Source: Pseudomonadota bacterium
Lineage (GTDB): Bacteria; Pseudomonadota; Gammaproteobacteria; Pseudomonadales; Pseudohongiellaceae
DNA length: 64,000 nucleotides
Direction of reading: 5' to 3'
Assembly: GCA_027623555.1 (NCBI GenBank)
Contig: JAQBSZ010000004.1
Span: forward strand, 62,001-126,000
Under the pieces are notes generated by a model. The model searched no databases. It was given only the letters and a program-made list of their open reading frames with translations, and was not told the DNA's origin. Of this stretch, positions 10,243 to 56,002 are shown in pieces. How positions within the stretch are numbered: position 1 is the stretch's first letter; each line of letters starts with the position of its first letter. The position numbers and the translations under genes are program-made.

Positions 10243-12447
10243 CTAAAACGTGCCATTGACTCTGAGAGAAATGCGTCTGCCTGTATTACCACACTGGTCC
10301 TCGATTTCCTCGAGAATGCCATCGGAAATTCGACCGACGAACCGCTGGCGTTCCCGACAGAATTTCGAATTGTTAAAACTGGATGCTTCGAGTCGAAAGG
10401 TGGTGCCACCGAAGGCAACAATCTCTACGAAGGCATTGGTGAAAGGATCTCTGGTTTGTAGCTCGATGTCATCAATATCATAGCGCTTGGAGTTACCCTT
10501 GAATTCAGCGCTCCAGTTCAGGCCGTAATTCATATTCCAACGGCTGATATCGTGTCTGAATCCGAGCGACCATCTGCCCCTATCCTTGAAGCGCATGCGC
10601 CTTTCAATTCCGAGAAAGGGGTCAGTTATCTTCGAATCTTCCAGATTCAGGCTCGAAGTAATGAGCAGATTTGGCATGTCGATCATGCGCATGCGGATAC
10701 TCGCTCTGAGGTTCATACCCCAGGCCTGGCCATCTCCGATATTGCCGTTGGCAGACTGCAGGTCATCCTCCGACGGTGACACATCGATGCGCTCGATCCT
10801 GTCCTGCCAGTCTTCAAAAAACACATTACCAGAAACCACACCAATATCATTGGGTAGTCGATAATCGGCATTGAAATCGTACTTCCAGTACCACTCCTGA
10901 CGTAGATTTTCGTTACCCGCCTGGACATTCGAATCCTCATCCCGGTTGTCAGTGGCCGCGACAAAATCATTGAAGCTCAATTGCTCGACAATTTTCTCGA
11001 TCGATCCGCGTAGTTGTATCGTGGGCGTCAGATCATAGCGAAAATCAATCTTGGGTTTTACGAAACTGAAGTCCCGGGCGTTGGAGACATCACCGCTCTG
11101 CTTAATCTCGGACTGCTCATACAACAATGAAGTTTCCAATGACATTCGGGGATTTATTATCCAGTTGTGAATCGCAAAAGGCTCATAACGAATCTCTTCG
11201 ACTGAGGAATTGGCATTGGCAACGGCAACCGGGATCAGCCCTCCTACAACAGCCGATGGAGTGCCGGTACCAGCGACTCCCAACGCCAGATTGGAATCCA
11301 GTATTGTCTGGGCGCGTTCACCACCCAACTCGATATCCTGACCCTCGAAAATATCGAACGTATAGGAACCCCTGACAATACGTTCACGAGTGGTGCTGCC
11401 GTTACCGAGAAAGAGGTTCTTGGTCTCGGCACCATCGTCTGCCAGATCCCAGCGCTGACGCGTGGTGTCAAAGGTCGCCTTATTACTGATAAACAACACC
11501 TTGAAGCGAGCCCCATTGGTAGTGTTGTACTCATAGTCTCCGCCGATCTCCCAATTGTCAGTCTCGGTTGGGCTCTCTTCCCGCTGTATCAACACCGTAT
11601 TGGGATCTACCTTCAAGTCAGTAGTCCTTCGAATCAAGTCAGTCGGTCCGTCACCTTCTCTAACCAGTGCGTTGAGCCGGACACTGTTGTTTGGATTGAT
11701 CTGGTAGTCAAGGTTAGTACTCAGGGTCATCGTAGAACCATCGGTAGTGCGATCCTCCCGCACCAGGTCGTTCGGTGAGAAATCCCCCAGCACACTGTTT
11801 TCCTTGCTGATGAAAGGGCTGTAGGGCTCTTCCGCATTTGCAGTAAGCAGATAATTCAGCCCGCCCTGCTGGCCGCTGTAGGAGAAATTGCCACCGGGTT
11901 TAAGCGTATGGTCTCGAGTAAGGTTCAGACTGGCTTCATAGGAAACACTGCTGCTGCTGAGTTGTTCGAACAGCACTACATTGATGACCTGCCCGCTACC
12001 CCGGACATCCAGTTCACCCGAAGTGCCGCGAATGATCTGGATATAATCGACCTGATCCGCCGTAATGCGGTCGAGTTGGCCGCCGGTGCTATTATTCTTG
12101 CCAGCCGTGCGCTTGCCATTGATTAGAATCTCGTTTTCACTACTGCTGCTGCCGAATCCCCGGCCACCACCGCCACCACCACCACGACTGAAGCCGCCCG
12201 ATGAACTGCCACCGAAGCCGCCGCCGCCACTGAAGCCCCCTCGATCTCTGCCACCACCACTGGAACCGGCACCGGGAATTCGATCCAGCATGTCCTGGGC
12301 GGTTACGGGTGCGTATTCGGTGAAATAAGCAGCAGGATAGACGACGGTGGATTCGTCACCGACATTTTGCTGGGCTAAGGCAAGCTGAACAGGTATGGCC
12401 AGAAGCAGGAATAGTGTGCCTTTCAGCGCATTACATCGATTGGCCAT
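10243..12447 (-). CDS. TonB-dependent outer-membrane receptor with glycine-rich plug insert, copy 1 (734 aa)
   Basis: Signal peptide 1-25 (cut after QLALA), then a conserved mature start QNVGDESTVVYPAAYF that includes a TonB-box-like STVVYPA. A plug domain follows, with DRIPG, a Gly/Ser/Arg-rich stretch (about 60-104), EILINGKR and RITADQVDYIQIIRG, then a roughly 550-residue beta barrel ending in Phe (VNGTF), the usual assembly signal. A C-terminal cysteine pair (CRERQRFVGRIS ... EEIEDQC) is conserved in all paralogues and may form a loop disulfide. Four homologues lie in tandem, a fifth at 32.8 kb. The ligand is unknown; the nearby tannase and quinoproteins suggest aromatic or polyphenolic substrates (inference). 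Confidence 0.85.
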   Translation of the reverse strand: MANRCNALKGTLFLLLAIPVQLALAQQNVGDESTVVYPAAYFTEYAPVTAQDMLDRIPGAGSSGGGRDRGGFSGGGGFGGSSSGGFSRGGGGGGGRGFGSSSSENEILINGKRTAGKNNSTGGQLDRITADQVDYIQIIRGTSGELDVRGSGQVINVVLFEQLSSSSVSYEASLNLTRDHTLKPGGNFSYSGQQGGLNYLLTANAEEPYSPFISKENSVLGDFSPNDLVREDRTTDGSTMTLSTNLDYQINPNNSVRLNALVREGDGPTDLIRRTTDLKVDPNTVLIQREESPTETDNWEIGGDYEYNTTNGARFKVLFISNKATFDTTRQRWDLADDGAETKNLFLGNGSTTRERIVRGSYTFDIFEGQDIELGGERAQTILDSNLALGVAGTGTPSAVVGGLIPVAVANANSSVEEIRYEPFAIHNWIINPRMSLETSLLYEQSEIKQSGDVSNARDFSFVKPKIDFRYDLTPTIQLRGSIEKIVEQLSFNDFVAATDNRDEDSNVQAGNENLRQEWYWKYDFNADYRLPNDIGVVSGNVFFEDWQDRIERIDVSPSEDDLQSANGNIGDGQAWGMNLRASIRMRMIDMPNLLITSSLNLEDSKITDPFLGIERRMRFKDRGRWSLGFRHDISRWNMNYGLNWSAEFKGNSKRYDIDDIELQTRDPFTNAFVEIVAFGGTTFRLEASSFNNSKFCRERQRFVGRISDGILEEIEDQCGNTGRRISLRVNGTF

Positions 12448-12846
12448 CGAGCGGCCCCCGGTTATTGTTTGAATGCCGTCGGCAATCGAGCGACGCCGTA
12501 TGGTACTCAGTAAGAATGCGTATATCTACCAAAAACTGTCGCATTGAGTCGAATCTTGATCACTACAAATTGTATAGCCTTCAATCAGTTATCGTCACTC
12601 GAAGCGCCTGGTTTTGAGGCAAGCGATGGTATTACCGGGACGAGTACCCTCGGCGAAGGCAAAAGTGTACAAAATTCAGTCGATGTAAATACACACTGTC
12701 AGGAGGGCGCTTCGCTAAAAACAGGAGACAGATTAGTAACCGGTCCCTGGGCGGTGCATCACAAGTGAGTCAAACCACCGGAGCGAGAAGCAATTAATTG
12801 CAGGCAAAAACCTGGAAACGGAAACTGGATTCCAATTGCTGGAACC
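12448..12846. other. Intergenic region between receptor copies 1 and 2
   Basis: About 400 bp with no convincing gene. It holds the upstream region of receptor copy 1, including TACAATTTGTAG on the minus strand near 12565, similar to the -35 side of the promoter element shared by the other copies. The matching -10 is not clearly conserved here. The end next to copy 2 shows no clear terminator hairpin. Confidence 0.5.
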
Positions 12847-15059
12847 CTAGAAGGTTCCAGATACTCTGAGTGACACTGTAGGGCCAGAACTGCTGCACTG
12901 ATCTTCTATCTCTTCCAGAATGCCAGCGGAAATGCGCCCGACGAAGCGTTGCCGTTCGCGACAAAATTCTCCGGCGCTAACAATTCGGTTCGCATCGAGG
13001 CGAAACGTCAAATTGCTGAATCCTACCCATTCTACAAACACTGACCAGAAAGGATCTCCGCCTGACAGCTCGATATCATCGATGTCATAACGCTCGCGAC
13101 CACCATCAAACATATTCATCCAGTTCAAGCCATAGTTCAGGTTCAAATTTGGCAGGTCATGCCGAAATCCCATGGAAGTGCGTCCCCGATAGCTGAAGAG
13201 CATGCGACGCTCTATGCCCAGAAATGGATCGATGATTTTGGAATCTTCCAGAGACACGCTGGCGGTTACTAACATGTTCGGCATATCGAACATACGCAGT
13301 CGGATACTGCTGTTCAGATCCAGGCCATACTTCTCACCATCGCCGATATTGCCATTAGCGCTCTGCAGATTCGTTTCAGAGATAGAGACATCCAACCTTT
13401 CGATTCTGTCGTGCCAGTCTTCATAGTAGAGTCTGCCACTGACAACACCGATGTCATTGGGTAGGCGATACTCACTATTCAATTCATAGTTCCAGTACCA
13501 TTCCTGACGCAGATTTTCATTTCCCACCTGCACGTTTGAGTCCTCGTCCTGATTATCAGTCGCCGCGACGAAATCGCTGAAACTCAACTGCTGTACAACT
13601 TTTTCGATTGTGCCACGCACCTGTAAGGCAGGAGTCAGGTCATAGCGGAAATCAATTTTTGGCTTTACGAAGTTGAAGTCTCGTTTTTTAGATACATCAC
13701 CGCTTTGGGTAATTTCCGAGGTCTCATACAAAACAGAGGTTTCCAGCGACATTCTCGAGCTGATGATCCAGTTGTGAATAGCAAAGGGTTCGTAGCGCAT
13801 CTCTTCCACGACTGAATTCGCGTTGGATATAGAAACCGGAACCAGTCCGCCATGGGCTAACGATGGAGTACCAGAACTACTGGCAACTCCCAGTGCCAGG
13901 TTTGATCGAGGATTGTCTGCGCACGTTCCGCCCCTAACTCAATGTCCTGGCCCTGGAAGATGTCAAATGTGTAAGAGCCACGAGCGATGCGTTCTCTGCT
14001 GGTACTGCCCGAATCCAGGAACAGATTTTTGTCTTCAGTGCCATCACCGAGCACATCCCAACGTTCCCTGGTACTTGCTCGAGTAAATGAGTTACTTATA
14101 TACAATAACTTGAATCGGTCACCGCGATCTGTGTTGTATTCATAGTCGCCACCTATTTCCCAGTTTTCGATCGAACTGGGACTTGATTCACGCTGCAGTG
14201 CAGTGACGTTTGGAACAACTTTAAGATCGGTGGTCATGCGATTTAAGGTCGATTCACCCTTACCCTCGGTGTACTGCGCATTAAATCGCCCACTGCTCCT
14301 GGTATTAATCGCGTAGTCCAGATTTGTGCTGACGGTTCGATTATCTCCATCTGTAGAATTGACTTCACGTATGCGGTCATTCGGAGAAAAATCTCCCAGT
14401 ACGGAATTCTCTTTGCTGGTGTTCTGAAAATAAACGTCTGAAGCCCTGGCACTAAGTTGATAGTTCAAGCTACCTTGCTGACCACTGTAGGAGACACTAC
14501 CCCCTGGAGAGACAGTATTGTCATCGGTCTGCTCAGCCCGCATCTCGTATTGAATGCTTGATGAGCTCAACGTCTCGAACAACACCACGTTGATAACCTG
14601 TCCACTGCCGCGTACGTCAAGCTCGCCCGAGGTGCCGCGAATGATTTCAAAGTAGTCCACCTGGTCCGCAGTAATTCGTGAGAGTTGGCCACCCGTGCTA
14701 TTGTTTTTACCGGCTGTTCGTTTGCCGTTGATGAGGATCTCTGTACCACTGCTGCCGCCGCCAAATCCGCGGCCACCGCTACCTCCACCACTGAATCCTC
14801 CCGGAGGACCACCGCTGCCGCCGGAACCACTACCGGGTGGGCCACGAAAACCACCTCCACCGGGACCGCCACCAAGCCCACCACCACTGCTTAGACCTGG
14901 AATCCTGTCCATCATGTCCTGAGCGGTAACGGGAGACCATTCAGAAAAATAGGCAGCAGGGTATCTGACTGTAGAGTCATCACCTACATTTTCTTGAGCG
15001 AATGAAAGCGGGATGAAGCCCAGCGATAGCAGGGTTGACAGGATAATATGACGAGCCAT
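12847..15059 (-). pseudogene. TonB-dependent receptor with glycine-rich plug insert, copy 2, single-base frameshift
   Basis: The first frame starts at ATG 15059 (MARHIILSTLLSLGF signal peptide, AGAGGAAGG ribosome site) and runs through the plug, with a Gly/Pro/Ser-rich insert and EILINGKR, to ERAQTILD. It then goes out of frame near 13905 and stops at 13857. The second frame, 12847 to about 13905, continues exactly where paralogues go on (NANS-VVEEMRYEPFAIHNW) and ends VSGTF. Paralogues read GATTC where this gene reads GATC on the minus strand, so one T is missing. The total, 2213 nt, is one base short of 738 codons. The rest of the frame is clean, so the lesion is recent, a sequencing error, or a reversible switch. 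Confidence 0.85.
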
Positions 15060-15157
15060 TCGGCCTTCCTCTAGGATCAATTCAGGCTCACAAAACCGGC
15101 TTGTTTGATCGTTAATTGCTTCTCGATGTATGAAGCACTTTAATGGGGCCGTAGTAT

Positions 15158-15187
15158 TGCATAGCTCTTGTGAATTATTTGTTACAA
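15158..15187 (-). promoter_or_regulatory. Promoter-like element of receptor copy 2 (TTGTAA-N18-TATGCA)
   Basis: On the minus strand TTGTAA (15182-15187) is followed after exactly 18 bases by TATGCA (15158-15163). The same spacing and -10 box occur upstream of receptor copies 3 and 4, and outside these boxes the flanks are less conserved. It lies about 100 bp before the start codon. Confidence 0.6.
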
Positions 15188-15564
15188 ATTGTATAGCGAT
15201 CAACCCTTTAGCGACGATCCGTTTGCCAATTCAGGAAAACTGTAAAGTGTTGTGACAATTGCCCCCACTGCTATTGCCAAGACATGATTGTCTTAATAAA
15301 TCCACAAAATTTGGAGAATGCCCACTCGAGGACTTAGTGAAATTACCTGGCCCGATGAGTCGATTCGAGCGCGGTTGGACACAAATTACTGGAATGCTCA
15401 ATCAGGAAAAATCTAAAGCCTTAAACTTTCGACCGGGTAGCCGTGCAAAAGTGCCTGGCACCCTTTAATGCAAGAATACGCGGAGTTACCAACTGTTGAT
15501 TTGCAGGGTCTGTGCCGTGTTACAGCTCAGGGTTAATCGGGGCAGCGAATCCTGTCAGGATTGG
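15188..15564. other. Intergenic region upstream of receptor copy 2
   Basis: About 380 bp without a supported gene. It contains one degenerate copy of the GTGCCTGGCACC repeat at 15447-15466, flanked by AAAA and TTT, which could act as a weak terminator after receptor copy 3 (minus strand). No other structure was recognised. Confidence 0.5.
15447..15466. repeat. Dispersed GTGCCTGGCACC repeat, single half
   Basis: AAAAGTGCCTGGCACCCTTT is a near-palindrome matching one arm of the hairpin at 3541-3577 and the tandem pair at 17950-17975. Confidence 0.6.
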
Positions 15565-17832
15565 CTAATAAGTGCCGTTCACACGCAGGGAAACAGTGGG
15601 ACCTGAAGTGCTGCACTGATCTTCAATCTCTTCCAGGATGCCACTGGAAATGCGACCGGCGTAGCGTAGTCTCTCCCGGCAGTTTTCACCGTTGTTGATG
15701 ATGCGCAGGGCATCGAGACGGAATGTCATATTGTTAAAGCCTACCCACTCGACAAATACACTCCAGAAAGGATCGCCTGATGAGAGTTCAATATCATCGA
15801 TATCGTAGCGAAGGCGACCGCCGTCGAAGAAGTTGCTCCAATTGCCACCGTAGTTCAGGTTCCAACGAGGAATGTCATGGCGAAAGCCGATATTGGTTCT
15901 CCCGCGAAAGCTGAACAGGAAACGCCGGTCTATCCCCAGGAAAGGATCAGTAATCTCCGAATCTTCCAATGACAAACTGGCTGTAGCCAGCAAATTTGGC
16001 ATATCGAACATGCGCATGCGGATACTGCTGTTTATATCCAGGCCATACTTCTTGCCATCACCAACATTACCGTTGGCGCTTCTCAGATCGTCCTCGGAAA
16101 CGGAAACATCCAATCGTTCAATCTTGTCGTGCCAGTCCTCATAATAGAGCCGGCTGCTGACCACACCAATATCGTTGGGCAATCGATATTCAGCGTTTAC
16201 TTCGTAATTCCAATACCACTCCTGTCGCAAATTGGCGTTACCCGCCTGCACATCGGAGTCCTCATCCTCGGCATCAGTCGCCGCCACAAAATCGTTAAAC
16301 GTTAACTGCTGCACAATTTTTTCGACAGTGCCACGCAGCTGTATAGTAGGGGTCAGGTCATACCTGAAATCTATTTTTGGTTTAACAAAATCGAAGTCCC
16401 GCTTCTTGGATACATCTCCACTCTGGCTAATTTCGGAATCCTCATACAAGACGGATGTTTCCAGTGACATTCTCGGGCTGATGATCCAGTTGTGAATTGC
16501 GAACGGTTCATAGCGTATTTCTTCGACCGTGGAATTAGCATTGCTTACCAACTGGGGTATCAGTCCACCATGGGAAGTCGAAGGCACTCCGGTGTCGCTG
16601 GCCAGGCCCAGAGCCAGATTGGAATCGAGAATGGTCTGTGCACGTTCAGCGCCTAATTCGAGATCCTGACCATCGCCGAATATGTCAAAGGTATAGGAAC
16701 TACGCACGATGCGTTCCCTGGTAGTAGAGCCTGAGTCGAGAAACAGATTTTTGCTTTCACTACTGTCACTTGAGATGTCCCAGCGCTCTCTGGTGGTCGT
16801 TCTGGTGTTGGAATTGCTGATAAACAACACCTTAAATCGGTCACCGCGGGACGTGTTGTATTCGTAGTCCCCACCAATCTCCCAGTTATCGGACTCAGAA
16901 GGACTATCCTCTCGCTGCAAACTCTCAACATGCGGAGAAACTTGCAGATCGACGGTACTACGAAATGTTTCGGTGGGGCTGTCACCATCAGAGAACAGGC
17001 CATTAAAGCGCGCACTGCTGTTGGCATTAATTTGGTAATCCAGATTCGTGCTGAACGTCAAATTAGAGCCTTCGGTGGTTCGAGTCTCGCGTACAGTATC
17101 GTTAGGCGAGAAATCGCCCAGTATAGAGTTTTCCTTGCTCAGGTTTTTGAAATAACTATCGGACGCTCTGGCACTGAGCTGAAAATTTAACCCGCCCCGT
17201 TGACCGCTGTAGGACAGACTCCCGGAAGGAGAAACCGTGTTGTCATCAGCCTGTTCAGCCCGTAATTCGTATTGCGTGGTGTAGGCACTGAAGGTGTCAA
17301 ACAGCACCACATTCACAACCTGGCCACTGCCGCGTACGTCCAATTCACCAGAGGTGCCCCTGATAATTTCAATATAATCGACCTGGTCGGAAGTTATGCG
17401 TGTGAGCTGACCACCGGTGCTGTTGTTCTTGCCCGCCGTACGCTTGCCATTAATGAGAATCTCGGTGCCACTGTTGCCGCTGCCGAATCCGCGACCACCG
17501 CCACCACCACCACCAAAGCCGAATCCAGCAGGTAAACCGCTGACGCCACCACCGCCACCTCCCGGTGGACCGCCAAAACCACCGCCGCCGCCACCGCCAC
17601 CGCCGCCAAAACCACCTCCACTACTCATGCCGGGGATGCGGTCCAGCATGTCCTGGGCGGTTACGGGTGACCATTCGGAGAAATAAGAGGCGGAGTAGCG
17701 GACCGTGGACTCTTCGCCCACATTATCCTGGGCAAAGGAACTCGACCCCAAGTTCAGAAAAAGCAGGAAAACAGGAGCATAAATCGGATTGATCCGTCGT
17801 GCTCCGGGGTTAATCTCCATGTTCAATTCCAT
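15565..17832 (-). CDS. TonB-dependent receptor with glycine-rich plug insert, copy 3 (755 aa)
   Basis: Closest in sequence to copies 2 and 4. The signal region is residues 1-34 (hydrophobic core PVFLLFLNLGSSSFA), followed by QDNVGEESTVRYSASYFSEW, the TonB-box-like segment, and DMLDRIPG. The Gly-rich insert (about 70-122) includes a run of ten glycines. EILINGKRTAGKNNSTGGQL and RITSDQVDYIEIIRGTSGELDVRG follow, then a barrel ending VNGTY. The upstream start M1 is 4 residues before a second Met; both are possible. The family-specific C-terminal cysteine pair is present. The insert is coded by GGN/CCN-rich DNA prone to replication slippage, and its length differs between copies. Confidence 0.87.
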   Translation of the reverse strand: MELNMEINPGARRINPIYAPVFLLFLNLGSSSFAQDNVGEESTVRYSASYFSEWSPVTAQDMLDRIPGMSSGGGFGGGGGGGGGGFGGPPGGGGGGVSGLPAGFGFGGGGGGGRGFGSGNSGTEILINGKRTAGKNNSTGGQLTRITSDQVDYIEIIRGTSGELDVRGSGQVVNVVLFDTFSAYTTQYELRAEQADDNTVSPSGSLSYSGQRGGLNFQLSARASDSYFKNLSKENSILGDFSPNDTVRETRTTEGSNLTFSTNLDYQINANSSARFNGLFSDGDSPTETFRSTVDLQVSPHVESLQREDSPSESDNWEIGGDYEYNTSRGDRFKVLFISNSNTRTTTRERWDISSDSSESKNLFLDSGSTTRERIVRSSYTFDIFGDGQDLELGAERAQTILDSNLALGLASDTGVPSTSHGGLIPQLVSNANSTVEEIRYEPFAIHNWIISPRMSLETSVLYEDSEISQSGDVSKKRDFDFVKPKIDFRYDLTPTIQLRGTVEKIVQQLTFNDFVAATDAEDEDSDVQAGNANLRQEWYWNYEVNAEYRLPNDIGVVSSRLYYEDWHDKIERLDVSVSEDDLRSANGNVGDGKKYGLDINSSIRMRMFDMPNLLATASLSLEDSEITDPFLGIDRRFLFSFRGRTNIGFRHDIPRWNLNYGGNWSNFFDGGRLRYDIDDIELSSGDPFWSVFVEWVGFNNMTFRLDALRIINNGENCRERLRYAGRISSGILEEIEDQCSTSGPTVSLRVNGTY

Positions 17833-17901
17833 CGCTTGAGACCTGTATCAGAAACCTAGAATTTAGTGGCCTGAATTGAGCGTTGTTATGGCTAGCAATA
17901 T

Positions 17902-17931
17902 TGCATAGCAGTTCAGGGCGAATTGTAACAA
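17902..17931 (-). promoter_or_regulatory. Promoter-like element of receptor copy 3 (TTGTTA-N18-TATGCA)
   Basis: Minus strand TTGTTA (17926-17931), an 18-base spacer, then TATGCA (17902-17907). The predicted transcript start lies about 63 nt before the start codon, the same distance as for copy 4. Confidence 0.65.
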
Positions 17932-17949
17932 ACTTTAGAGCCGTGTTTT

Positions 17950-17975
17950 GGTGCCAGGCACCGGTGCCAGGCACC
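17950..17975. repeat. Tandem GGTGCCAGGCACC repeat (2 x 13 bp)
   Basis: Two perfect adjacent copies of the 13-base unit, each itself a near-palindrome, located between receptor copies 3 and 4. It has a TTT tract on the right side and TTTT on the left, so it may form alternative hairpins and act as a terminator for copy 4. Confidence 0.7.
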
Positions 17976-18039
17976 TTTCAGCAGGATCAGGAAGGCGCGG
18001 GGAAGCAATTCCGATCAGGATTCGATGAACTGGCTTCGT

Positions 18040-20313
18040 CTAGAAGGTACCGTTCACACGCAGGGAAGCGCTGGGCCCGGAAGAGGAACACTGGTCTTCG
18101 ATTTCTTCCAGCACGCCACTCGAAATACGACCCACAAAGCGTTGCCGCTCACGGCAAAATTCAGAGTTGTTAATAATTTGTCTCAGGTCGAGCCGAAACG
18201 TGATGTTATTAAATCCCACCCATTCCACGAATCCAAACCAGAAGGGATCGCCTGCGGATAATTCGATGTCATCGATATCGTAGCGTTTGCGATTGCCATC
18301 CCAGCGATTGCTCCAGTTCATCCCATAATTCAGATTCCAGCGTGGAATGTCATGGCGAAAACCCAGGTTAGTGTGACCGCGGAAGCTGAACAGGAAGCGC
18401 CGGTCAATGCCCAGGAACGGATCGGTGATCTTCGAATCTTCCACCTGAAAACTTGCGGTTACTAACAGGTTTGGCATATCGATCATGCGCATGCGGATAC
18501 TGGAGTTCAGATCTGCACCGAATCTCTCGCCATCACCGATATTTCCATTCGCGCTCAATAAATTGTCTTCGAATACCGTGACATCCAGACGTTCGATCTT
18601 GTCATGCCAGTCTTCATAATAGACGCGGCCGCTCACCACACCGATGTCATTGGGTAAGCGGTACTCGGCGTTCACTTCATAATTCCAATACCATTCCTGG
18701 CGCAAATTGGCATTACCGGCCTGTACAGCCGAGTCTTCATCCTCGGCGTCAGTAGCGGCAACGAAATCATTAAACGTCAACTGCTGCACTATTTTTTCGA
18801 TGGTTCCACGTAGTTGTAGAGCTGGGGTCAGGTCATATCTGAAATCAACCTTAGGTTTCACAAAGCTGAAGTCTCGCTGTTTAGAGACATCCCCTCGCTG
18901 GGTAATCTCGGAATCTTCATACAACACCGATGTTTCCAATGACATTCTCGGGCTGATTATCCAGTTATGAATCGCGAAGGGTTCATTCCGTATTTCCTCG
19001 ACTGTGGAATTGGCATTGGCAACGCTAACGGGAACCAGGCCGCCATGGGCTGCCGAGGGAATACCGAAAGGGTCAGCCACTCCCAGGGCCAGCTTGGAAT
19101 CGAGAATCGTCTGCGCCCTCTCGGCACCGATCTCGATATCCTGCGCTCCGCCAAACATCTGCAAGGTATAGGAGCTGCGCACGATGCGTTCCCGGGTATT
19201 GCTGCCAGAATCCAGAAACAGATTCTTGGTCTCAGTGCCATCACCTGGCAGATCCCAGCGCTCCCTGATGCTATCGATCGTATTGGAGTTGCTGATAAAC
19301 AGAATCTTGAAGCGATCTCCACGGTTGAGGTTGTATTCGTAATCGCCACCAATTTCCCAGTTATCCTGCTCGGTTGGATTCTCTTCGCGCTGCAGGCTCA
19401 CCAGGTTTGGCGTTACTCGCAGGTTGGTGGTACTGCGAAACAAGTCTGTTGGATTATCACCGTCAGTGAGCTGGGCATTAAAACGCGCACTGCTGTTGGA
19501 ATTTATTTCGTAATCTAGGTTGGTACTGAGGGTGGAGTTACTGCCTTCGGTTATTCTCCTTTCACGGATACGATCATTCGGTGAAAAATCACCGAGCACA
19601 GAATATTCCTTGCTCAGGTTATTGAAATAGACATCGGATGCCCGGGCGCTCAACTGAAAATTCAAGCCACCGCGTTGCCCGCTATAGGACAGGCTACCCG
19701 AAGGAGTGACCGTATTATCATCCGCTTGCTGAATGGTGGCCTGGTATTGAAAAGTGGAGGTGGTGAAGGTTTGAAACAACACCACATTGACTACCTGGCC
19801 ACTGCCGCGAACATCCAGTTCACCGGAAGTGCCGCGAATAATTTCGATATAGTCCACCTGATCCGCCGTGATCCGGGTCAACTGGCCACCGGTGCTGTTA
19901 TTCTTGCCGGCGGTGCGTTTGCCATTGATCAGGATCTCACTGCCACGGTTGCCGCCACCGAATCCGCGGCCACCACCACCGCCCCCACCCCGGCTGAAGC
20001 CTCCTCCTGGGGGGCCACCACCGAATCCTCCCGGCGGCCCACCGAATCCACCACCACTGAATCCTCCCGGTGGACCTCCGAATCCACCACTACTCATGCC
20101 GGGAATGCGATCCAGCATGTCCTGGGCGGTTACCGGTGACCAATCGGAAAAATATGCGGCAGGATATCTGACCGTGGATTCATCTCCCACGTTTTCCTGG
20201 GCGAAGGAAATCGAACTAATAGTCAGAAATAACAGAAAAACAAGCGCACAGAACGGCGCACAAAACGGATAGGACCGTTGTGCTTCGAGGCCAATCACTA
20301 CTTTAAAATCCAT
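18040..20313 (-). CDS. TonB-dependent receptor with glycine-rich plug insert, copy 4 (757 aa)
   Basis: Signal region 1-38 (hydrophobic ALVFLLFLTISSISFA), mature start QENVGDESTVRYPAAYFSDW, DMLDRIPG, and the longest and most repetitive insert of the array (about 72-122). The insert is built from GGFGGPPGG-type units followed by FSRGGGGGGGRGFGG. EILINGKR and RITADQVDYIEIIRG then lead to a barrel ending VNGTF. Periplasmic-side plug and barrel motifs are nearly identical to copies 2 and 3, whereas surface-loop segments vary. It is probably the first receptor transcribed in the array, with its own promoter at 20383-20412. The ligand is unknown. Confidence 0.87.
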   Translation of the reverse strand: MDFKVVIGLEAQRSYPFCAPFCALVFLLFLTISSISFAQENVGDESTVRYPAAYFSDWSPVTAQDMLDRIPGMSSGGFGGPPGGFSGGGFGGPPGGFGGGPPGGGFSRGGGGGGGRGFGGGNRGSEILINGKRTAGKNNSTGGQLTRITADQVDYIEIIRGTSGELDVRGSGQVVNVVLFQTFTTSTFQYQATIQQADDNTVTPSGSLSYSGQRGGLNFQLSARASDVYFNNLSKEYSVLGDFSPNDRIRERRITEGSNSTLSTNLDYEINSNSSARFNAQLTDGDNPTDLFRSTTNLRVTPNLVSLQREENPTEQDNWEIGGDYEYNLNRGDRFKILFISNSNTIDSIRERWDLPGDGTETKNLFLDSGSNTRERIVRSSYTLQMFGGAQDIEIGAERAQTILDSKLALGVADPFGIPSAAHGGLVPVSVANANSTVEEIRNEPFAIHNWIISPRMSLETSVLYEDSEITQRGDVSKQRDFSFVKPKVDFRYDLTPALQLRGTIEKIVQQLTFNDFVAATDAEDEDSAVQAGNANLRQEWYWNYEVNAEYRLPNDIGVVSGRVYYEDWHDKIERLDVTVFEDNLLSANGNIGDGERFGADLNSSIRMRMIDMPNLLVTASFQVEDSKITDPFLGIDRRFLFSFRGHTNLGFRHDIPRWNLNYGMNWSNRWDGNRKRYDIDDIELSAGDPFWFGFVEWVGFNNITFRLDLRQIINNSEFCRERQRFVGRISSGVLEEIEDQCSSSGPSASLRVNGTF

Positions 20314-20549: not shown

Positions 20550-21584
20550 TTAGTTGTTGATGAAGCGGTACTTCCGCAGCGCCATGCCTCCGGTTAGCGA
20601 GCCATACACATTGCCACCCGAGTCGGCAAACACCCCTTCCTGGGTACCGGTTGCGTCCGGATCGTCGATAAACGTTGTCACCCGCCCGTCCCGCACGCTG
20701 GCAATGCGGATGCCTCTTTCGTAGCCCGGGTTGTTGCGAGGGCTGGAAGAAGAATCCGTTACATAGAGAATATCATTGGCATCGATATAGATGCCGCTGG
20801 GACGACCAAACTGAAACGACTGCCTGATGAAGTTGCCCTCCTGATCAAAGACCTGCACCAGGGCATTGCCACGATCCCCCACATACAGCAGTCCTTGGGA
20901 ATCCATGGCCAGTGCATGGGGTGTCTCGAACTGACCCTGTCCTTCGCCCTTCGATCCCCAGCTCGTGATGAACCTGCCTTGCGCGTCGAACTTGACGATG
21001 CGGGCATTGGATTGACCGCCGTGGCCATCCCCGACGAAGATGTCGCCATTCGCTGCTACATACACCGCCGAAGGTTGATTGAATTCATCGGGCCCAGCAC
21101 CGGCGATCCCGGGTTTTCCCAACGCCATTAACAGCTGGCCTTCCGGACTGAACTTGAACACCTGATGGCCCTTGCCATCGCGACGCGGATCCTCCCCATC
21201 GGGACCTTCTCCGTCGCTGACCCACACGTTGCCGTCACTATCGACATGCAGACCGTGCGGACGCACGAACAGATTGGCGCCGAAGCTGGTCAGGTGATGG
21301 CCGTCCATGTCGAATTGCATGATAGGTGCCAGGTCTGAACCGACACAGTCATTGGCACCACAGCGATCGAAGACCCAGATACTGGTTTCATCGGGGTGAA
21401 TGGCATAACCCGCGGTTGAACCGATTGTTCGACCGGCGGGTAACTTGAAGAATGCCTGATCGAGTGAATAGTTATCGCTGGGAGTGAAGCGGGCATCGTC
21501 TACCTGGGCTACACCCGGCACCGACAGCACTGCCAACAAAGCAGTGGTGTAGTGCATGATTTTCCGGATAACAGCCGGTGTCAT
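20550..21584 (-). CDS. Secreted NHL-repeat beta-propeller protein (344 aa)
   Basis: Signal peptide about 1-26 (ending PGVAQ). The rest is a six-bladed NHL propeller: repeated units such as VRPHGLHVDSDGNVWVSDGE, FNQPSAVYVAANGDIFVGDG, FETPHALAMDSQGLLYVGDR, and RPSGIYIDANDILYVTDS. It resembles the periplasmic NHL proteins annotated as peptidyl-alpha-hydroxyglycine amidating-lyase-like or as SMP-30-like, but its catalytic activity cannot be judged. It is separated by only 18 bp from the upstream tannase-family gene on the same strand and is therefore probably cotranscribed with it. It may be a lactonase-like or binding partner of the esterase pathway (inference). Confidence 0.75.
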   Translation of the reverse strand: MTPAVIRKIMHYTTALLAVLSVPGVAQVDDARFTPSDNYSLDQAFFKLPAGRTIGSTAGYAIHPDETSIWVFDRCGANDCVGSDLAPIMQFDMDGHHLTSFGANLFVRPHGLHVDSDGNVWVSDGEGPDGEDPRRDGKGHQVFKFSPEGQLLMALGKPGIAGAGPDEFNQPSAVYVAANGDIFVGDGHGGQSNARIVKFDAQGRFITSWGSKGEGQGQFETPHALAMDSQGLLYVGDRGNALVQVFDQEGNFIRQSFQFGRPSGIYIDANDILYVTDSSSSPRNNPGYERGIRIASVRDGRVTTFIDDPDATGTQEGVFADSGGNVYGSLTGGMALRKYRFINN

Positions 21585-21602: not shown

Positions 21603-23105
21603 TTAGTCCGGATTCACGCAGGCAAAATTGCTGGCATCGAACTCATCACCGCTGCCATCGTATTCTGCAACCTGAGGGTAGACACAAAGAGGCCTGGTTC
21701 CGGTTCGTTGCGACCCTGGCGGGTAACTGGCAATAATCTCTTCAGGCGCATTACCACTTACTACCCACTGATCGATTACATCCAGGAAATTTACTATGGA
21801 CGGGCCTTTACCTCCGGCACAATGTAAGACACCCGGCATCATGTAAAGCTGGACATCGGCATTTGCCGTGGGATCGTTGGCCAAAACCTGTTCATAGTAT
21901 CCGATAGTTGCATCGCCGCTAATTGCCGAGTCAGACCAACCCTGGTAGATCAAAAGCTTGCCGCCATGATCCCGGAATGCCGATAGATCCGGGTTTGTCG
22001 CATTTAGCGTGGCCGCAAGATTGGCCGCTTCATTTTGAAAATTGTCGAACTGGTAAGTGGCATAATTCCAGTCCGGGTCGTGGAACACCATGTACTTCAT
22101 GATGCCGGTGCTGAACCCAAAATGGGCGTTGGGGATCGGCTGCACGCCGTTATTGCGACTCGATGACTGCGTACCACCGCTCAGCCAGGCAGACCAGCCG
22201 CCATTATCGCTCTCTCCTCCAAGGGGATAGCCATAGAAGATGGGCTTTCCCATTACATCGACCGGGCCATCATAGATTTTGCTGATTGCCGACCTTTCTG
22301 CTTGAGTGAAACACTCATCTGTATCGCCGGCCGAACAGGAAGGAAGTTCAGCGACACTGAAATCACACTGGTGTGGATTATTCAGTATTCCATCTTCGAT
22401 TCCATCCTGGGCATCGCATTTGGACAAAATCATGCCTTCCAGCATTGCCTGCTCTGCCGATGAAATAATTGCTGCACTCAGATTGGTTGGATCTGGAAAC
22501 ATCGCTTGCTGAATCTGAATTCCCTGGGCCGCTATTCCAGACCAGCTATAGGCAGGTGCTCCTGCAACGATACCGTCGAAATCATCGGGATAGCGTTGCG
22601 CTTCAATCAGGGCCTGACCGCCTCCTCGAGAACAGCCAACGAAATAATTTCGCTCGATCTCAGCACCGTAGTAGCCGCTAATCAGCGACTTGGCATTGAC
22701 CGCCGTGCGGTGTACTGCCTGATGCCCGAAGTTAACGATACGCTCCAGGTTATGCAATGCCCAACTTGCATCGATACCCTGATTCTGGTGCCCGGTGTCA
22801 GTGCCGACTGTTGCGTAGCCAGCAGCGAGTGAACCGAAGGCCAGCGAGGAATTCTGCACGCTGCCGACAAAACCACCGCCTCCACCCATGACGAATTTAC
22901 CGTTCCAGTTTTCAGGGAGCAGCAATTCGAAGCGGATTTCTGTGCCAATGATTCCCGAGGCTTTGCAGTGGGGCACAGGACGAGCAACTGACTCCACTGA
23001 AGTAAAACGCACTTCGGCCAATAGTGGCAGTGAGTCTATATCGCAATTCAATTGCGCGTAACTCAAGCCTGGCAGTAAAGCAAGCAACATCAATAGTCTG
23101 GACAT
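21603..23105 (-). CDS. Tannase/feruloyl esterase family hydrolase (500 aa)
   Basis: Secreted alpha/beta hydrolase that in this family cleaves aryl esters such as gallate, ferulate or hydroxybenzoate esters. A signal peptide is present at 1-17. The family hallmark, a catalytic triad whose Ser and His are bridged by a disulfide between the neighbouring cysteines, is complete: GCSRGGGQ (Cys158-Ser159), GWSDSAIS (Asp392), and PGVLHCAGG (His428-Cys429). An oxyanion-type loop KFVMGGGGGFVG is near 70-80, and the large lid domain contains paired cysteines. Length is normal. Its neighbours are an NHL protein downstream and a quinoprotein/cytochrome pair upstream, suggesting a periplasmic phenolic-ester module. 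Confidence 0.92.
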   Translation of the reverse strand: MSRLLMLLALLPGLSYAQLNCDIDSLPLLAEVRFTSVESVARPVPHCKASGIIGTEIRFELLLPENWNGKFVMGGGGGFVGSVQNSSLAFGSLAAGYATVGTDTGHQNQGIDASWALHNLERIVNFGHQAVHRTAVNAKSLISGYYGAEIERNYFVGCSRGGGQALIEAQRYPDDFDGIVAGAPAYSWSGIAAQGIQIQQAMFPDPTNLSAAIISSAEQAMLEGMILSKCDAQDGIEDGILNNPHQCDFSVAELPSCSAGDTDECFTQAERSAISKIYDGPVDVMGKPIFYGYPLGGESDNGGWSAWLSGGTQSSSRNNGVQPIPNAHFGFSTGIMKYMVFHDPDWNYATYQFDNFQNEAANLAATLNATNPDLSAFRDHGGKLLIYQGWSDSAISGDATIGYYEQVLANDPTANADVQLYMMPGVLHCAGGKGPSIVNFLDVIDQWVVSGNAPEEIIASYPPGSQRTGTRPLCVYPQVAEYDGSGDEFDASNFACVNPD

Positions 23106-23186: not shown

Positions 23187-24842
23187 TTAATCTTCCAGTG
23201 CAAACGTAGAGAGGCTGTTACCGGAAATAACCGACACATATTGCACACCGTCCACCATGTAAGTTACCGGCGCCATCACAATCTGGCTACCAAGATTGAC
23301 ATTCCAGATCAATTCACCACTGCGGGCATCGATGGCATGGAAGTAACCTTCCCTGCCCCCGGTGAATAACAGATCCGATCCTGTTGTCAGCATGCCACTG
23401 TCGCTGACATCGAACTGGTTGTACGACCATCTTGCCTCGCCGGTTTGCGGGTCCATGGCCTTGAGTGAGGAGTAACCCATTTCGTTGGTCCAGTTGTTGA
23501 TGGGATTGGTACGCCCGATACCGATCGTGGGCGCTTCGGGCGCGGGTGCCAACACCGAGAAGCCCCCACCGAGGAACGCACGCCCCGGAATGTATTCCGC
23601 TTCCTCGGATCGATAAATCGTGGCGTAGTTTTCCCAGGCACTGAAATAGAACAGGCCAGTACTGGGGCTGAATGAGGGTGGATACCAGTTCGTCCCGCCC
23701 TGGTTGCCCGGGTAAGTGGGCATGCCTTCCGGTTGTGGAGTGGCAATGGGCCGCCCGTTCGCATCCAGGCCACTCGACCAGTTCACCTTGACATAGGGCT
23801 TGCCCTCCAGGAACTCACCGGTGACCCGATCCAGTACATAGAAGTAACCATTACGATTGGCCCACATCATGATTTTCTTTGGCTCGCCCCGCCAGACCAT
23901 GTCCGCCAACACCGGCACCTGGGTCGAGTCATAGTCATAGGGATCGTTGGGAGTGAACTGAAAGTGCCAGCTGAGCTCGCCGGAATCAGCATCCAGTGCA
24001 ATCACCGAATCTGAATAGAGGTTATCTCCCGGTCGCTGTCCAGCGTTCCAGTCAGGCCCTGGATTGCCCACGCCCCAGTAAGTCAGGTTCAAATCCGGAT
24101 CGAAGGAACCGGTAATCCACACAGGAGCGCCGCCGTGTTCCCAGTCATCCCCTTCCCAGGAATCATGATTCGGCTCACCGGGACCAGGAATCGTGTAAGT
24201 CTTCCAGGCTTGATCACCAGTGTCGGCTTCGTAGGCGACCACGTAGCCACGAATACCAAATTCACCGCCGCCGACTCCCACCATGATCTTGTCTTTCACC
24301 GCCAGCGGCGCCATGGTTACCGAGTAGGACAGGTTGACATCACCGACCTCCACATTCCACAGTGGCTGACCATTAACCCGGTCCAGCGCGATAAGCCGCC
24401 CATCAAGAGTACCCATGTAAACCTTGTCATCCAGGAGCGCGACACCGCGGTTATTGGCACCGCAACAAATACGGGCACCCTCTACCGGTACGTGACGATA
24501 TTTCCAGAACACCCGGCCGGTTACGGCGTCTACGGCCATGACACTATTAGGCCGCTCGGTGACATACATGATGCCGTCGACAATCAGTGGATTCGATTGC
24601 CAGGCCCCGAATACCTGGTTCTGTAACACCCACTGCAGCTTCAGCCCACTGACATTGTCCGGGGTAAGCTGATCCAGCAGGCTATGACGCTGACTCATGT
24701 AACCACCGTTGTAGGTCAACCAGTTCTGCGGCTCGTCATGGGCATTGAGAATTCTCTCGTAGGGCAACTGCCCTGAAGCAGGCATCACGGCTAGCAGTGA
24801 GGCGATGCAAAAAATGTACGGCGGTATTCTCATTGGTTTCAT
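23187..24842 (-). CDS. PQQ-dependent dehydrogenase, alcohol-dehydrogenase-like (551 aa)
   Basis: Signal peptide about 1-24. The eight-bladed quinoprotein propeller shows WLTYNGGYMSQRHSLLDQLT at its start, VTGRVFWKYRHVP, RICCGANNRGVAL (a vicinal Cys-Cys pair matching the disulfide ring that sits over PQQ in methanol/ethanol dehydrogenases), LIALDRVNGQPLWN, VIALDADSGELSWHFQ, and a C-terminal ARSGELIWNVNLG. The DYDSTQVPVL segment corresponds to the catalytic Asp block. Its ATG overlaps the stop of the dihaem cytochrome gene by 4 bp, so the cytochrome is the likely electron acceptor. At 551 aa without a fused haem domain it fits the type I or soluble type. The substrate is not determinable; a small alcohol or phenolic alcohol is plausible. 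Confidence 0.88.
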   Translation of the reverse strand: MKPMRIPPYIFCIASLLAVMPASGQLPYERILNAHDEPQNWLTYNGGYMSQRHSLLDQLTPDNVSGLKLQWVLQNQVFGAWQSNPLIVDGIMYVTERPNSVMAVDAVTGRVFWKYRHVPVEGARICCGANNRGVALLDDKVYMGTLDGRLIALDRVNGQPLWNVEVGDVNLSYSVTMAPLAVKDKIMVGVGGGEFGIRGYVVAYEADTGDQAWKTYTIPGPGEPNHDSWEGDDWEHGGAPVWITGSFDPDLNLTYWGVGNPGPDWNAGQRPGDNLYSDSVIALDADSGELSWHFQFTPNDPYDYDSTQVPVLADMVWRGEPKKIMMWANRNGYFYVLDRVTGEFLEGKPYVKVNWSSGLDANGRPIATPQPEGMPTYPGNQGGTNWYPPSFSPSTGLFYFSAWENYATIYRSEEAEYIPGRAFLGGGFSVLAPAPEAPTIGIGRTNPINNWTNEMGYSSLKAMDPQTGEARWSYNQFDVSDSGMLTTGSDLLFTGGREGYFHAIDARSGELIWNVNLGSQIVMAPVTYMVDGVQYVSVISGNSLSTFALED

Positions 24843-25648
24843 TGCAGACCTCGTAAGCTAAGCAGGTAACCGACCACGTCGGCGACCTCGGCGCTGGAAA
24901 GCGTGGTGGGTGGTTTGCTGGGCGCCATGCTGATCTCATAGCTGACCAGGTCGGACTTCTGCAAGGAACGCAACCTCTCCTGGGAGTCTATGACCTGAAC
25001 GGTATAGGTGTCCTCATTGAGTCTTCTGCCGATTATGGTCTCTTCATTCCGTGTAACGATGCGCACGGGCCGGTTTATCGGCAGGATTGCCGTAGCCGGG
25101 TCTAACAGGTTGCGCTGCAAGGAGGCCGGCGAGCGTATCGCGCCAATTTCGGAAAGATCCGGCGCTGTTCTGGGTCCGACACCATTGACGCGGTGGCAAT
25201 TTGCACATTCGCCCTTGCCCTGAAAAAGCGCCTCTCCCCGCGCAGGATCACCAATGAAGATGGCCACGCCTTCCGGGTTGAAGCCAGCCCTGATGTAGGC
25301 GATCACGCCATTTAAATCCGCCTCATTGAAATTGAAAGCCGGCATCTGCCCGGCGCCGGCACCGCTGGTGACGATGCTGCGCAAGTCTTCGTCAGACTGA
25401 GCCGTCTTGAATTGGCCGAGCCGAAGGTTTACACCACCGACCAGGTCTCCCTGAGGTCCGTGGCAGAGCGCGCATTCACGGCTATAGATGCGCAATCCTG
25501 CCTGAATCGCCTGGCTGGTATATTGGTGGTCACCGAGTTCCTGGGCCAGCCCAGCGCCAGGACTTATCAGGATCAGGAGCATTCCCAGGCAGCCCATCGC
25601 CCTCAGTGCTTGGCTAATAACTCGTAAATACTTCATAGAATACGGCAT
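24839..25648 (-). CDS. Periplasmic dihaem cytochrome c, partner of the PQQ dehydrogenase (269 aa)
   Basis: Signal peptide about 1-35 (ending GAGLAQ). There are two haem sites: CALCH (59-63) with Met102 in GQMPAF as likely axial ligand, and CANCH (148-152). The region 190-260 (IIGRRLNEDTYTVQVID, SYEISMAPSKPPTTLS, VADVVGYLLSL) is typical of the large c-type cytochromes encoded next to PQQ dehydrogenases. The gene is translationally coupled (4-bp overlap) to the quinoprotein downstream. Start ATG 25648; a second Met at residue 5 is an equally possible start. Confidence 0.9.
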   Translation of the reverse strand: MPYSMKYLRVISQALRAMGCLGMLLILISPGAGLAQELGDHQYTSQAIQAGLRIYSRECALCHGPQGDLVGGVNLRLGQFKTAQSDEDLRSIVTSGAGAGQMPAFNFNEADLNGVIAYIRAGFNPEGVAIFIGDPARGEALFQGKGECANCHRVNGVGPRTAPDLSEIGAIRSPASLQRNLLDPATAILPINRPVRIVTRNEETIIGRRLNEDTYTVQVIDSQERLRSLQKSDLVSYEISMAPSKPPTTLSSAEVADVVGYLLSLRGLQ

Positions 25649-25909: not shown

Positions 25910-26827
25910 ATGACATTACTGAGAATCAACGCCCTGTCTAATGCCCTGATGGGACTGGTTCTTCTTGCCGGAACCTGCACCTTCTCCGCCGCTCTGGCCC
26001 AGGATAACAGCGATGGCAGATACCGTCCGGAGGGAAGAACCTTCGCGACCGCCACGGCTAACCTGTTCGATGACCGATTATATGAGGCCAGAACTTACGA
26101 GACTGGCACTGGTGTGGCTGAATTTGCCGGTGCGACAATTTTTTATCCCCTGACCCTGAGCTTTGACCTGCCGAACGGTGGCGTGGTGATGGTGCCGGGA
26201 TATCGCGGCACTCCACCGGTTTATGACTGGTGGGGCCCGATGCTGGCTTCGGTCGGTGTAATCACCATGATTATCGAGACCAATACCCTGGAAGATTCCC
26301 TGGAGGCACGCAAGAATGCCTTGATCGCCGGCGTCGCATTCCTCAAGGCAGAGAACGCTAATCCTGACAGCCCGATTCGAGGCAAACTCGATACCAGCAA
26401 CATCGGCATCATGGGCCACTCCCTGGGTGGTGGCGCCTCACTGCGAGCGGCAGAAACGCTCGGCGCGCAGATCAAGGCGGTTATTCCATTGACGCCTTAC
26501 TGTTGTGAACTGGGCCAATCCTTCGCAGGTAATCTCAGTGGTGTCGATGTGCCAACACTGATCGTGGCCAGCGCCGAAGACACCATCGCCCCACCAGCCA
26601 CTCATGCCCGCCTGCTCTACGATTCCATTAATGATGCCACCTCCAAGGTGTACCTGGAATTTGCCACTGGAGATCACATGCTGCCTTCAAATAGCGGGAA
26701 AGATCTGGGGACGCTTGGCACCTATGTATATGCCTTCCTGAAACTGCATTTCACCGATAATCAGCGTTACGGAAATTTTATTAATGGCGAGGGTGAAGAA
26801 CAGTTCTCGACCTACGAAACAAACTAA
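25910..26827 (+). CDS. Secreted alpha/beta hydrolase resembling cutinases and PET hydrolases (305 aa)
   Basis: Signal peptide 1-30 (ending AALA). The core aligns by eye with bacterial cutinases/PETase: GYRGTPPVYDWWGPMLAS (PETase GYTARQ...WWGPRLAS), ETNTLED, SPIRGKLDT, nucleophile GHSLGGG (Ser171), PTLIVASAEDTIAP (Asp224), YDS, KVYLEFATGDH (His256), and a final FTDNQRYGNF. The oxyanion residue would be in GYRG (Tyr98). The PETase subsite Trp (APW) is Tyr here (TPYCC), and both cysteines of the PETase-specific active-site disulfide are absent; a vicinal Cys198-Cys199 pair is unusual. A dienelactone-hydrolase-like ester specificity is the alternative. The start has an AGAGG site. A strong terminator follows. 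Confidence 0.82.
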   Translation: MTLLRINALSNALMGLVLLAGTCTFSAALAQDNSDGRYRPEGRTFATATANLFDDRLYEARTYETGTGVAEFAGATIFYPLTLSFDLPNGGVVMVPGYRGTPPVYDWWGPMLASVGVITMIIETNTLEDSLEARKNALIAGVAFLKAENANPDSPIRGKLDTSNIGIMGHSLGGGASLRAAETLGAQIKAVIPLTPYCCELGQSFAGNLSGVDVPTLIVASAEDTIAPPATHARLLYDSINDATSKVYLEFATGDHMLPSNSGKDLGTLGTYVYAFLKLHFTDNQRYGNFINGEGEEQFSTYETN

Positions 26828-34925: not shown

Positions 34926-34937
34926 ATAAGAGTATTC

Positions 34938-35693: not shown

Positions 35694-35740
35694 TCAAGCT
35701 GGGTATGCCCTCCACTGGTAGTAAATCAGGAACCCTGGTG

Positions 35741-47602: not shown

Positions 47603-48073
47603 AGTTTTTCCTCTCTCATTTCCAATCAGGGACAGATTTATCGAGTCTATCTAAGTACACAGCGAATAAATAGCCGCTTGCGGCAGAATTAGATGCAGTT
47701 GATTTCATCCCTGATGGGTGCTTCTAGTGCACGGTCCGGATTAAACCATTGGGCACAGTAAATAATTCCTGAATCAGTTCTGGCGAAAGCTTTTTTCGAT
47801 GAATCACTGTTAGTGACTTTTCCAGTTACAAAGAATTACAAATCTGCCCGTTCATCCTACGTTAAGCAGTTGATATTACAATGGGTTTTCTGGATAAGTT
47901 AAAGCCTCGGACTTGCTTGTGGGAAAGAGATTGCTTATCCTCTCCTTCCCGATCCCAGGCAACTTTTACACCTTCTAGATGTCCACCTGGTGTGGCCTCG
48001 GAGGCCGGATGGTGCGTTCGACTCGACTACCGAGTGCGCACGAATTAGGGACGTCATATCTGGAGAGTCGAAG
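47603..48073. other. Divergent intergenic region between quinoprotein genes
   Basis: About 470 bp with promoters expected in both directions. It contains GGGACAGATTTA (47629-47640), a REP-family motif. No other repeat, hairpin or conserved promoter was recognised. The long frame reading upstream of 48074 is not supported by a ribosome site. Confidence 0.5.
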
Positions 48074-51350: not shown

Positions 51351-51450
51351 TATGCCTATCGATAATCCTTCTGTGGTGCGGCGGGTCGATCAGAGCTATA
51401 AAGGAAGGTTGCTGCTGTTGAATGACAGGACCGAATCGACGAGAGAGGCC

Positions 51451-52743: not shown

Positions 52744-52823
52744 GAGCGGGGCCAAGAACAGGGCTAAGAGTAGGCAAAAGCGCGTAAGCAGAATTCTCTG
52801 GCGCAGGCCGCCGCCGACTTCCT

Positions 52824-54627: not shown

Positions 54628-54681
54628 TTAGAAGTAGTTACCTAAACCTGACATCCGGGAAATAGCCTAAACCTTTCTGTC

Positions 54682-55990: not shown

Positions 55991-56002
55991 AGGAAACAGG
56001 AA

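Follow-up and report, generated by a model that had tools for sequence, protein, structure and literature searches.

A glycine-rich plug insert of variable length in a family of TonB-dependent receptors adjoining PETase-family hydrolase genes

The receptor genes and their neighbours

In this work, we describe a group of paralogous receptor genes, A to E, carried by a stretch of 64,000 nucleotides (G000:C62:62001-126000, hereafter the window) within a 4.5-Mb draft genome. The genes and features relevant to the analysis, in window positions, are the following:

10243..12447, minus strand: receptor A, intact, 734 aa
12133..12270, minus strand: Gly-rich plug loop of A, 46 aa
12847..13809, minus strand: receptor B, C-terminal fragment past the frameshift, a separate ORF
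13857..15203, minus strand: receptor B, N-terminal fragment carrying the plug and its loop, a separate ORF; frame lost near 13,904
14742..14894, minus strand: Gly-rich plug loop of B, 51 aa
15565..17832, minus strand: receptor C, intact, 755 aa
17464..17628, minus strand: Gly-rich plug loop of C, 55 aa
18040..20313, minus strand: receptor D, intact, 757 aa
19939..20097, minus strand: Gly-rich plug loop of D, 53 aa, modelled with very low confidence; repeat of 36 bp at 20015-20094
20550..21584, minus strand: NHL beta-propeller protein, a recurring neighbour
21603..23105, minus strand: tannase-family esterase, best solved relative MHETase; in some loci only
23187..24842, minus strand: PQQ-dependent dehydrogenase, methanol/ethanol type, TIGR03075 above cut-off
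24839..25648, minus strand: cytochrome c protein, two CxxCH motifs
25910..26827, plus strand: PETase-family (PF12740) hydrolase, divergent
32790..34925, plus strand: receptor E, short-loop paralogue
32982..33038, plus strand: short plug loop of E, 19 aa
34938..35693, plus strand: TonB C-terminal-domain protein adjoining E

An earlier note on this DNA had described four consecutive minus-strand receptor genes. Coordinates and strand are confirmed, and A, C and D are intact, but B is split by a frameshift, its barrel region lacking one base near 13,904 by comparison with A, C and D. Since the two fragments are still 69 and 78% identical to D, the frameshift is either recent or, we infer, a sequencing error; with no long homopolymer near 13,904, B may correspondingly be a pseudogene or the product of such an error. 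The motifs noticed as common to these genes are all present, namely a TonB-box-like STV(V/R)Y(P/S)A segment, RIPG, EILINGKRTAGKNN, a beta-barrel and a C-terminal pair of cysteines, C719 and C741 in the numbering of D, invariant across the 81-row family alignment. The inserts lying between RIPG and E(I/V)LING, 50–64% Gly, measure 46, 51, 55 and 53 aa in A, B, C and D, respectively, and both their length and the order of their residues differ in every copy, as had been observed; the insert of E, previously put at about 15 residues, is actually 19 aa long.

The Pfam Plug domain (PF07715) is recognized in C and E (25.0 and 34.2 bits, above the cut-off of 23.9). A and D are not among the matches of that scan at an E-value of 0.001, but in a genome-wide scan the domain scores above the cut-off at the positions corresponding to A, C, D and E, B being unlisted. 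When D and E were compared to NCBIfam, no curated receptor subfamily cut-off was reached, the best match, TIGR01782, scoring 21.1 and 38.5 bits, respectively, against a cut-off of 310. AlphaFold models of the same two proteins (mean pLDDT 79.9 for D and 81.9 for E, built on family alignments with 81 and 41 rows, respectively) were matched by Foldseek to solved TonB receptors at probability 1.00 and a TM-score of about 0.5, the best matches being siderophore, heme, colicin/microcin, copper and PQQ receptors. Single-sequence searches of the PDB gave only two chance-level matches for D (E-values 0.67 and 0.72) and none for E. A TonB-box-like pattern occurs shortly after the signal peptide, the latter judged by eye, and TonB binding is predicted. 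By sequence and predicted fold, the A–E family is one of TonB-dependent outer-membrane transporters, with a putative role in uptake.

In the D model, practically the whole insert, residues 74–122, falls below a pLDDT of 50, with blocks within 81–120 at 23–32; the low-confidence part of the E model corresponds to residues 71–82. Such low AlphaFold confidence indicates that no order is predicted for the loop, and says nothing of its function.

Among the neighbouring genes, the tannase-family protein (PF07519, 373 bits) has MHETase (6qz1) as its best solved relative, with an E-value of 1.7e-64 and an alignment that includes the regions of Ser, Asp and His, followed by a carboxylic ester hydrolase (1e-50) and feruloyl esterase B-2 (1.3e-49). 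By domain and best relative the protein is MHETase-like, and activity on MHET is predicted. The divergent hydrolase scores 170 bits against PF12740, where the cut-off is 28, and matches PET hydrolases at 1.5e-40; its GHSLGG motif, D and H, which we take to be the Ser-Asp-His triad, align with 8eu0. Against the NCBIfam BHET hydrolase equivalog it reaches 148 bits, with a cut-off of 520, and its activity on PET or BHET is putative.

This gene set recurs in other genomes. Genes for PETase (at least 71% identity), cytochrome c, PQQ dehydrogenase and NHL are found together with a receptor in 7 of 40 stretches (L117, L119–L123 and L134), and L138 contains the portion of this set that precedes its contig end. 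Further contigs with this set are contributed by L043, L044, L066 and L076, among the 77 loci that represent the best 80 of 170 relatives in a collection of named genomes. Some match to the hydrolase is present in 46 genomes of the 61-genome sample of the genus, at 70% identity or more in 8 of them (the next being at 59%); in all 8 the PETase orthologue lies 4.0–6.7 kb from the nearest listed receptor. An orthologue of the tannase-family protein (at least 71%) adjoins receptors in three of these eight genomes, G000, G045 and G025; in G032 the orthologue is located elsewhere, on a contig with no listed receptor. Less similar PF12740 genes also adjoin family receptors, at G055:C263, G040:C13, G002:C87 and G041:C79 in a non-systematic count. 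The receptor array belongs to a recurring locus, recurrence being an association and not a proof of substrate.

A separate observation concerns the surroundings of E: at 32790-37849 this receptor and the TonB C-terminal-domain protein lie in a row with a third protein, which is CehA/McbA-like (58 bits, below the cut-off of 80), and the same order is repeated by their relatives in L120 and L122.

Place of the insert in the plug and its spread

When the family alignment was compared by hhalign to K-12 BtuB, a probability of 94% was obtained, with RIPG, the loop, RGLG and LINGQR falling on BtuB RLPG, VDITQNGGSGQLSSIFIRG and LIDGVR (mature residues 48–84). The insert replaces BtuB VDITQNGGSGQLSSIFIRG, approximately mature residues 52–70. 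PfeA aligns with the family in the same manner, at the RG-G and L-V-D-G motif; for FhuA alone the hhalign probability is 1%, yet the register of the motifs is unchanged. According to the available text of PMC5413942, the force exerted by TonB unfolds half of the plug, residues 23–73 in BtuB and 20–83 in FhuA, and these weak halves of the two receptors touch the ligand. Taken together, the BtuB alignment and these ranges place the insert in a ligand-side loop, where the labile half reaches its C-terminal end, in line with the earlier remark that plug apices contact ligands. It is very probably, judging from these alignments, an expanded form of the first ligand-side loop of the plug. Arg81 of FhuA, located within the corresponding loop, presumably contacts ferrichrome.

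The distance from the TonB-box-like motif to the end of RIPG is 22–23 aa in all 95 receptors, out of 112, in which the motif was found by pattern (in the other 17 the pattern did not find it). The corresponding distance in BtuB, from the TonB box to the end of PG, is about 40 residues, counted from what we take to be the place of the BtuB TonB box, and the comparison suggests that the N-terminal half plug is short in this family. From RG to LING the median distance is 10 (range 8–40, the maximum probably deriving from an early pattern match), and from PG to RG the distance varies from 4 to 45.

The Gly-rich stretch is not a chance occurrence: when ORFs of at least 150 aa, from all six frames of the window and of sampled loci, were searched for at least 17 Gly in a 40-residue stretch, 86 of 159 family ORFs were selected, against none of 1515 other ORFs. 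An error in a single assembly, considered earlier as a possible source of the insert, is ruled out by the presence of 86 distinct full-length receptors in many genomes, with loops of 19–55 aa (median 40); the full loop list has 114 entries, a few of which duplicate one gene by overlap.

Relatives are found in all 61 sampled genomes of the genus and, at the family level, in 64 of 79 genomes and 7 of 8 genera, some being very weak. At the order level they are found in 34 of 194 genomes, with the listed matches above 40% identity all in genomes of the same family, and at the class level in 8 of 275, the source genome included, the other seven at 21–32% identity. Relatives in named genomes mostly belong to uncultured Pseudohongiella, OM182, Pseudomonadales and other Gammaproteobacteria, and a plasmid search gave three weak partial matches. 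A 58% relative is also present in L088, a record titled Klebsiella pneumoniae MAG; the other records are environmental, and the title may be wrong. As to whether the receptors are a widespread, named subfamily with a known substrate, they are widespread within one bacterial family, but D and E reach no NCBIfam subfamily cut-off, Pfam assigns the generic Plug only, and a literature search covering mostly non-subscription sources found no described substrate for the family.

Distant kin have shorter segments in place of the loop. Fourteen of them were compared, a set of 11 plus three with 23 residues, two of which from one genome; 13 (10 of the 11, and the three) have 18–24 residues at this position, not Gly-rich, and the remaining one has 37, likewise not Gly-rich. 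An unrelated ORF of L213, picked up by the pattern by chance, was excluded. In the sister genera the loop is 25–42 residues long and Gly-rich. In a tree made without the loop, distant kin have 17–23 residues (one 36), the E clade 19–22, the sister genus 24–35 and the rest of the genus 27–55, counts which are up to one residue shorter than the direct ones. This is a quick tree, with long branches among the distant rows, of which the order outside, sister genera, genus alone was used. It suggests a stepwise expansion of the loop, from distant kin through sister genera to the genus. Within the array, C clusters with a receptor from a different genome (SH-aLRT 99), and the branch leading to A is deeper; by their placement in the tree the array copies are old paralogues, and the proposal of a recent, local repertoire finds no support, because the closest partner of C lies in another genome.

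Variation and composition of the loop

The length of the loop changes fast relative to the remainder of the protein, as evaluated by pairwise comparison of indels inside the loop and outside it (from 30 residues before the loop to the protein end, the signal region being left out). In the 54 pairs at 80–90% identity there are 0.1 gap residues outside the loop, and loop length differs in 87% of them; in the 66 pairs at 75–80% identity, 0.4 gap residues over about 649 positions compare with a loop-length difference of 6.4 residues, and loop length differs in 92%. At 40–50% identity the figures are 6.6 gap residues outside and 16.6 in the loop. Of the 14 pairs that are closest (at least 90% identity), 12 have loops of equal length and 2 do not. 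The pattern indicates that the loop is an indel hotspot on the evolutionary time scale, not a fast switch.

Slippage, to which the diversity of the loops had been attributed, finds weak support. Repeated 12-mers sum up to 59, about twice the 31.7 expected from synonymous shuffles, and the loop DNA of D contains a 36-bp repeat in 2.2 copies; but the excess is significant (p<0.05, synonymous shuffling) in 4 of 84 genes only, and most of the closest pairs have loops of the same length. A comparison of dN/dS by domain, also proposed earlier, found plug dN lower than barrel dN in 35 of 40 listed pairs (109 computed); since barrel dS is saturated in 28 of these 40, no claim on selection by domain is made.

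Composition was determined on 102 family receptors (112 minus 10 distant rows), for a total of 2747 codons. The variable part contains Gly (49.5%), Ser (16.8), Arg (8.4), Pro (6.7) and Phe (5.4), with Asp and Glu at 0.7% each (1.4 together), Tyr at 0.3, His at 0.2 and Lys, Trp and Cys at 0.0. The corresponding figures for the remainder of the proteins are Arg 7.8, Phe 5.0, Asp 7.7, Glu 6.7, Lys 2.3, Tyr 3.5 and Trp 1.4%: Arg and Phe are thus at background level in the loop, and acids, Lys, Tyr, Trp and aliphatic residues are lower. As Arg and Phe are kept rather than enriched, and Tyr and Trp are depleted, there is no general gain of aromatics. Gly codons are mixed (GGT 521, GGC 499, GGA 227, GGG 114).

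Receptors at the recurring locus have a median loop length of 43.5 (n=30, four of E type included), against 36 for those outside it (n=47, 27–51 aa), with 35 of the 112 receptors unassigned. The difference has a Mann-Whitney p of 0.002 when kinship is ignored, and is not significant when kinship is allowed for (4–5 independent pairs); a link between loop length and the polyester locus is suggestive. Since long loops are also found outside the locus, the loop is not specific to its substrate.

The main rival to a functional reading of the loop, somewhat unlikely in our view, is a tolerated, near-neutral expansion: the solvent-filled cavity of the barrel would accept in-frame indels, and Gly-rich sequence would be harmless there. 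The free length and order of the loop, the E-type receptors and distant kin with 17–26 residues, the background level of Arg and Phe, the repeat in D and the twofold excess of 12-mers would all be in agreement with it. It does not account well, however, for the near absence of Asp and Glu, as reachable as Ser from Gly codons: Ser AGY and Asp GAY are each one G-to-A step from GGY, and occur 294 and 19 times, respectively, AGY exceeding GAY in 85 receptors, these being related sequences, and the reverse being true of one. Phe persists as well, although it is two steps from GGN. In prokaryotic low-complexity regions, according to the part of PMC6821194 considered here, Arg and aromatics are under-represented, which makes their retention, as Arg and Phe, unusual in this loop. 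Finally, none of the 47 receptors outside the locus has a loop shorter than 27 aa, although E-type kin with 22–26 exist. We read this as selection probably acting on composition, for a flexible, uncharged or positive segment with some Phe, the order of residues being free.

Possible ligands and role of the loop

The neighbourhood of the array points to ester or polyester substrates, in line with the earlier idea of ester or polymer ligands. That the receptors are instead ordinary ones for siderophores, cobalamin or other small nutrients, lying beside esterase genes by happenstance, is unlikely. The nature of the best solved folds, and the occurrence of relatives in every genome of the genus sample, many of them away from the locus, could be so explained; but several genomes repeat the order PETase, cytochrome c, PQQ dehydrogenase, NHL, receptor(s), the less similar PF12740 genes adjoin other receptors of the family at the four contigs listed above, and no siderophore or cobalamin gene was noticed among the ORFs of the window, inspected by eye and, for 20 proteins, with Pfam. 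A slippage-driven repertoire, switching rapidly by phase or antigenic variation of the plug loops, would suit the fast change of loop length, the tandem paralogues and the one broken copy, but is highly improbable given the mixed Gly codons, the weak repeat excess, the equal loop lengths in most of the closest pairs and the location of the B frameshift in the barrel, outside any repeat.

We tentatively favour, as a proposition close to evenly balanced, an expanded and disordered plug loop contacting bulky ester oligomers produced by the adjoining enzymes. In one bacterial family, the first plug loop has very probably grown into a segment of Gly, Ser, Arg, Pro and Phe, itself probably disordered. 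This segment would hang in the barrel's external cavity, where Arg, Phe and the backbone would provide loose, multivalent contacts with bulky ligands. Because it closes the half plug that is extracted by TonB in BtuB and FhuA, the loop would travel together with the ligand, and unfolding would be unnecessary. The ligands may be oligomers freed by the adjoining PETase-family hydrolase; monoesters and alcohols would then be processed by the tannase/MHETase-like esterase, the PQQ dehydrogenase and the cytochrome c, and the old receptors A–D would cover, in parallel, different oligomers. As for the single parts, a role of the loop in ligand contact and gating could go either way, and ester oligomers as the ligands are a possibility held with somewhat more reserve. 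Among the findings that count against the whole, the tannase-like gene adjoins receptors in only 3 of the 8 genomes, and E, with its loop of 19 aa, shares the neighbourhood of the array. A further elaboration, which we regard as very doubtful, would see the force-labile, ligand-contacting part of the plug largely lost as a folded unit, its place taken by a disordered filler of Arg, Phe and Gly. Inside the barrel this filler would form a sticky, selective mesh: ester oligomers of aromatic or hydrophobic nature would load it, TonB would draw it out without unfolding work, and loop length would set the size of what may pass, the plug being gated by disorder.

Receptors A–E share with the BtuB, FepA/PfeA and FhuA class the TonB-box-like motif, the PG..RG..LI(D/N)G plug motifs and the fold, and differ from it in the first plug loop, which has lengthened from some 20 residues to a maximum of 55. 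The PETase and MHETase couple of Ideonella sakaiensis is known as a system, and the presence in one locus of a PF12740 hydrolase and a MHETase-related tannase-family esterase resembles it; here, in contrast, a PQQ dehydrogenase, a cytochrome c and a receptor array are also found, and the hydrolase falls far short of the BHET hydrolase cut-off. In G-F and R-G-G spacing and order-free composition, the loop resembles Gly/Phe-rich segments of the FG/RGG type, such as DNAJB linkers and FG-repeat proteins, as far as their available descriptions go; the loop is, however, located inside an outer-membrane barrel, homology is absent and the resemblance is compositional only. The phase separation proposed earlier is a speculation which neither gains nor loses from these results. 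Histidine-rich TonB-dependent receptors provide another case of a low-complexity stretch in a TonB receptor, but those regions, in the available text of PMC6821194, are rich in His and discussed in connection with metals, whereas the one described here consists of Gly, Ser, Arg, Pro and Phe, with hardly any His, in one plug loop.

In a literature search covering mostly non-subscription sources, none of the matches listed dealt with a Gly-rich plug loop or the A–E receptors, or joined TonB-dependent, PETase and MHETase, and no uptake partner was described; the accessible portions of PMC6821194 and PMC8552747 do not cover a Gly-rich plug loop of TonB receptors. Most TonB transporters in marine gammaproteobacterial genomes are not amenable to substrate prediction, according to the section of PMC8371827 considered. 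How TonB receptors pass large or oligomeric ligands beyond the plug is an open question. With loops of 19–55 residues in receptors of one type, a single genome provides a natural series in which the contribution of the ligand-side plug loop can be tested directly. A first class of substrates is suggested by the linked genes of PETase, MHETase and PQQ type, and the receptors, a family carried by little-studied aquatic bacteria, could supply the uptake partner of a polyester-like pathway.

A few minor features of the region may be recorded. The segment 20550-26827 of the window is a candidate pathway for a natural polyester or an aromatic ester. Three PQQ-type dehydrogenases are encoded within 50 kb (3585-5609, 23187-24842 and 47990-50014), and in L117 (genome G045) a second PQQ-type gene, at 15170-17824, with 27% identity and on the opposite strand, lies between two receptors of the array. 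At 51352-57325, about 25 kb from the PETase-type gene, a P450, a FAD monooxygenase, two dioxygenase-family proteins and a lyase form an aromatic ring-cleavage cluster, in which one of the two dioxygenase-family proteins has the N-terminus of the protocatechuate 3,4-dioxygenase beta type.
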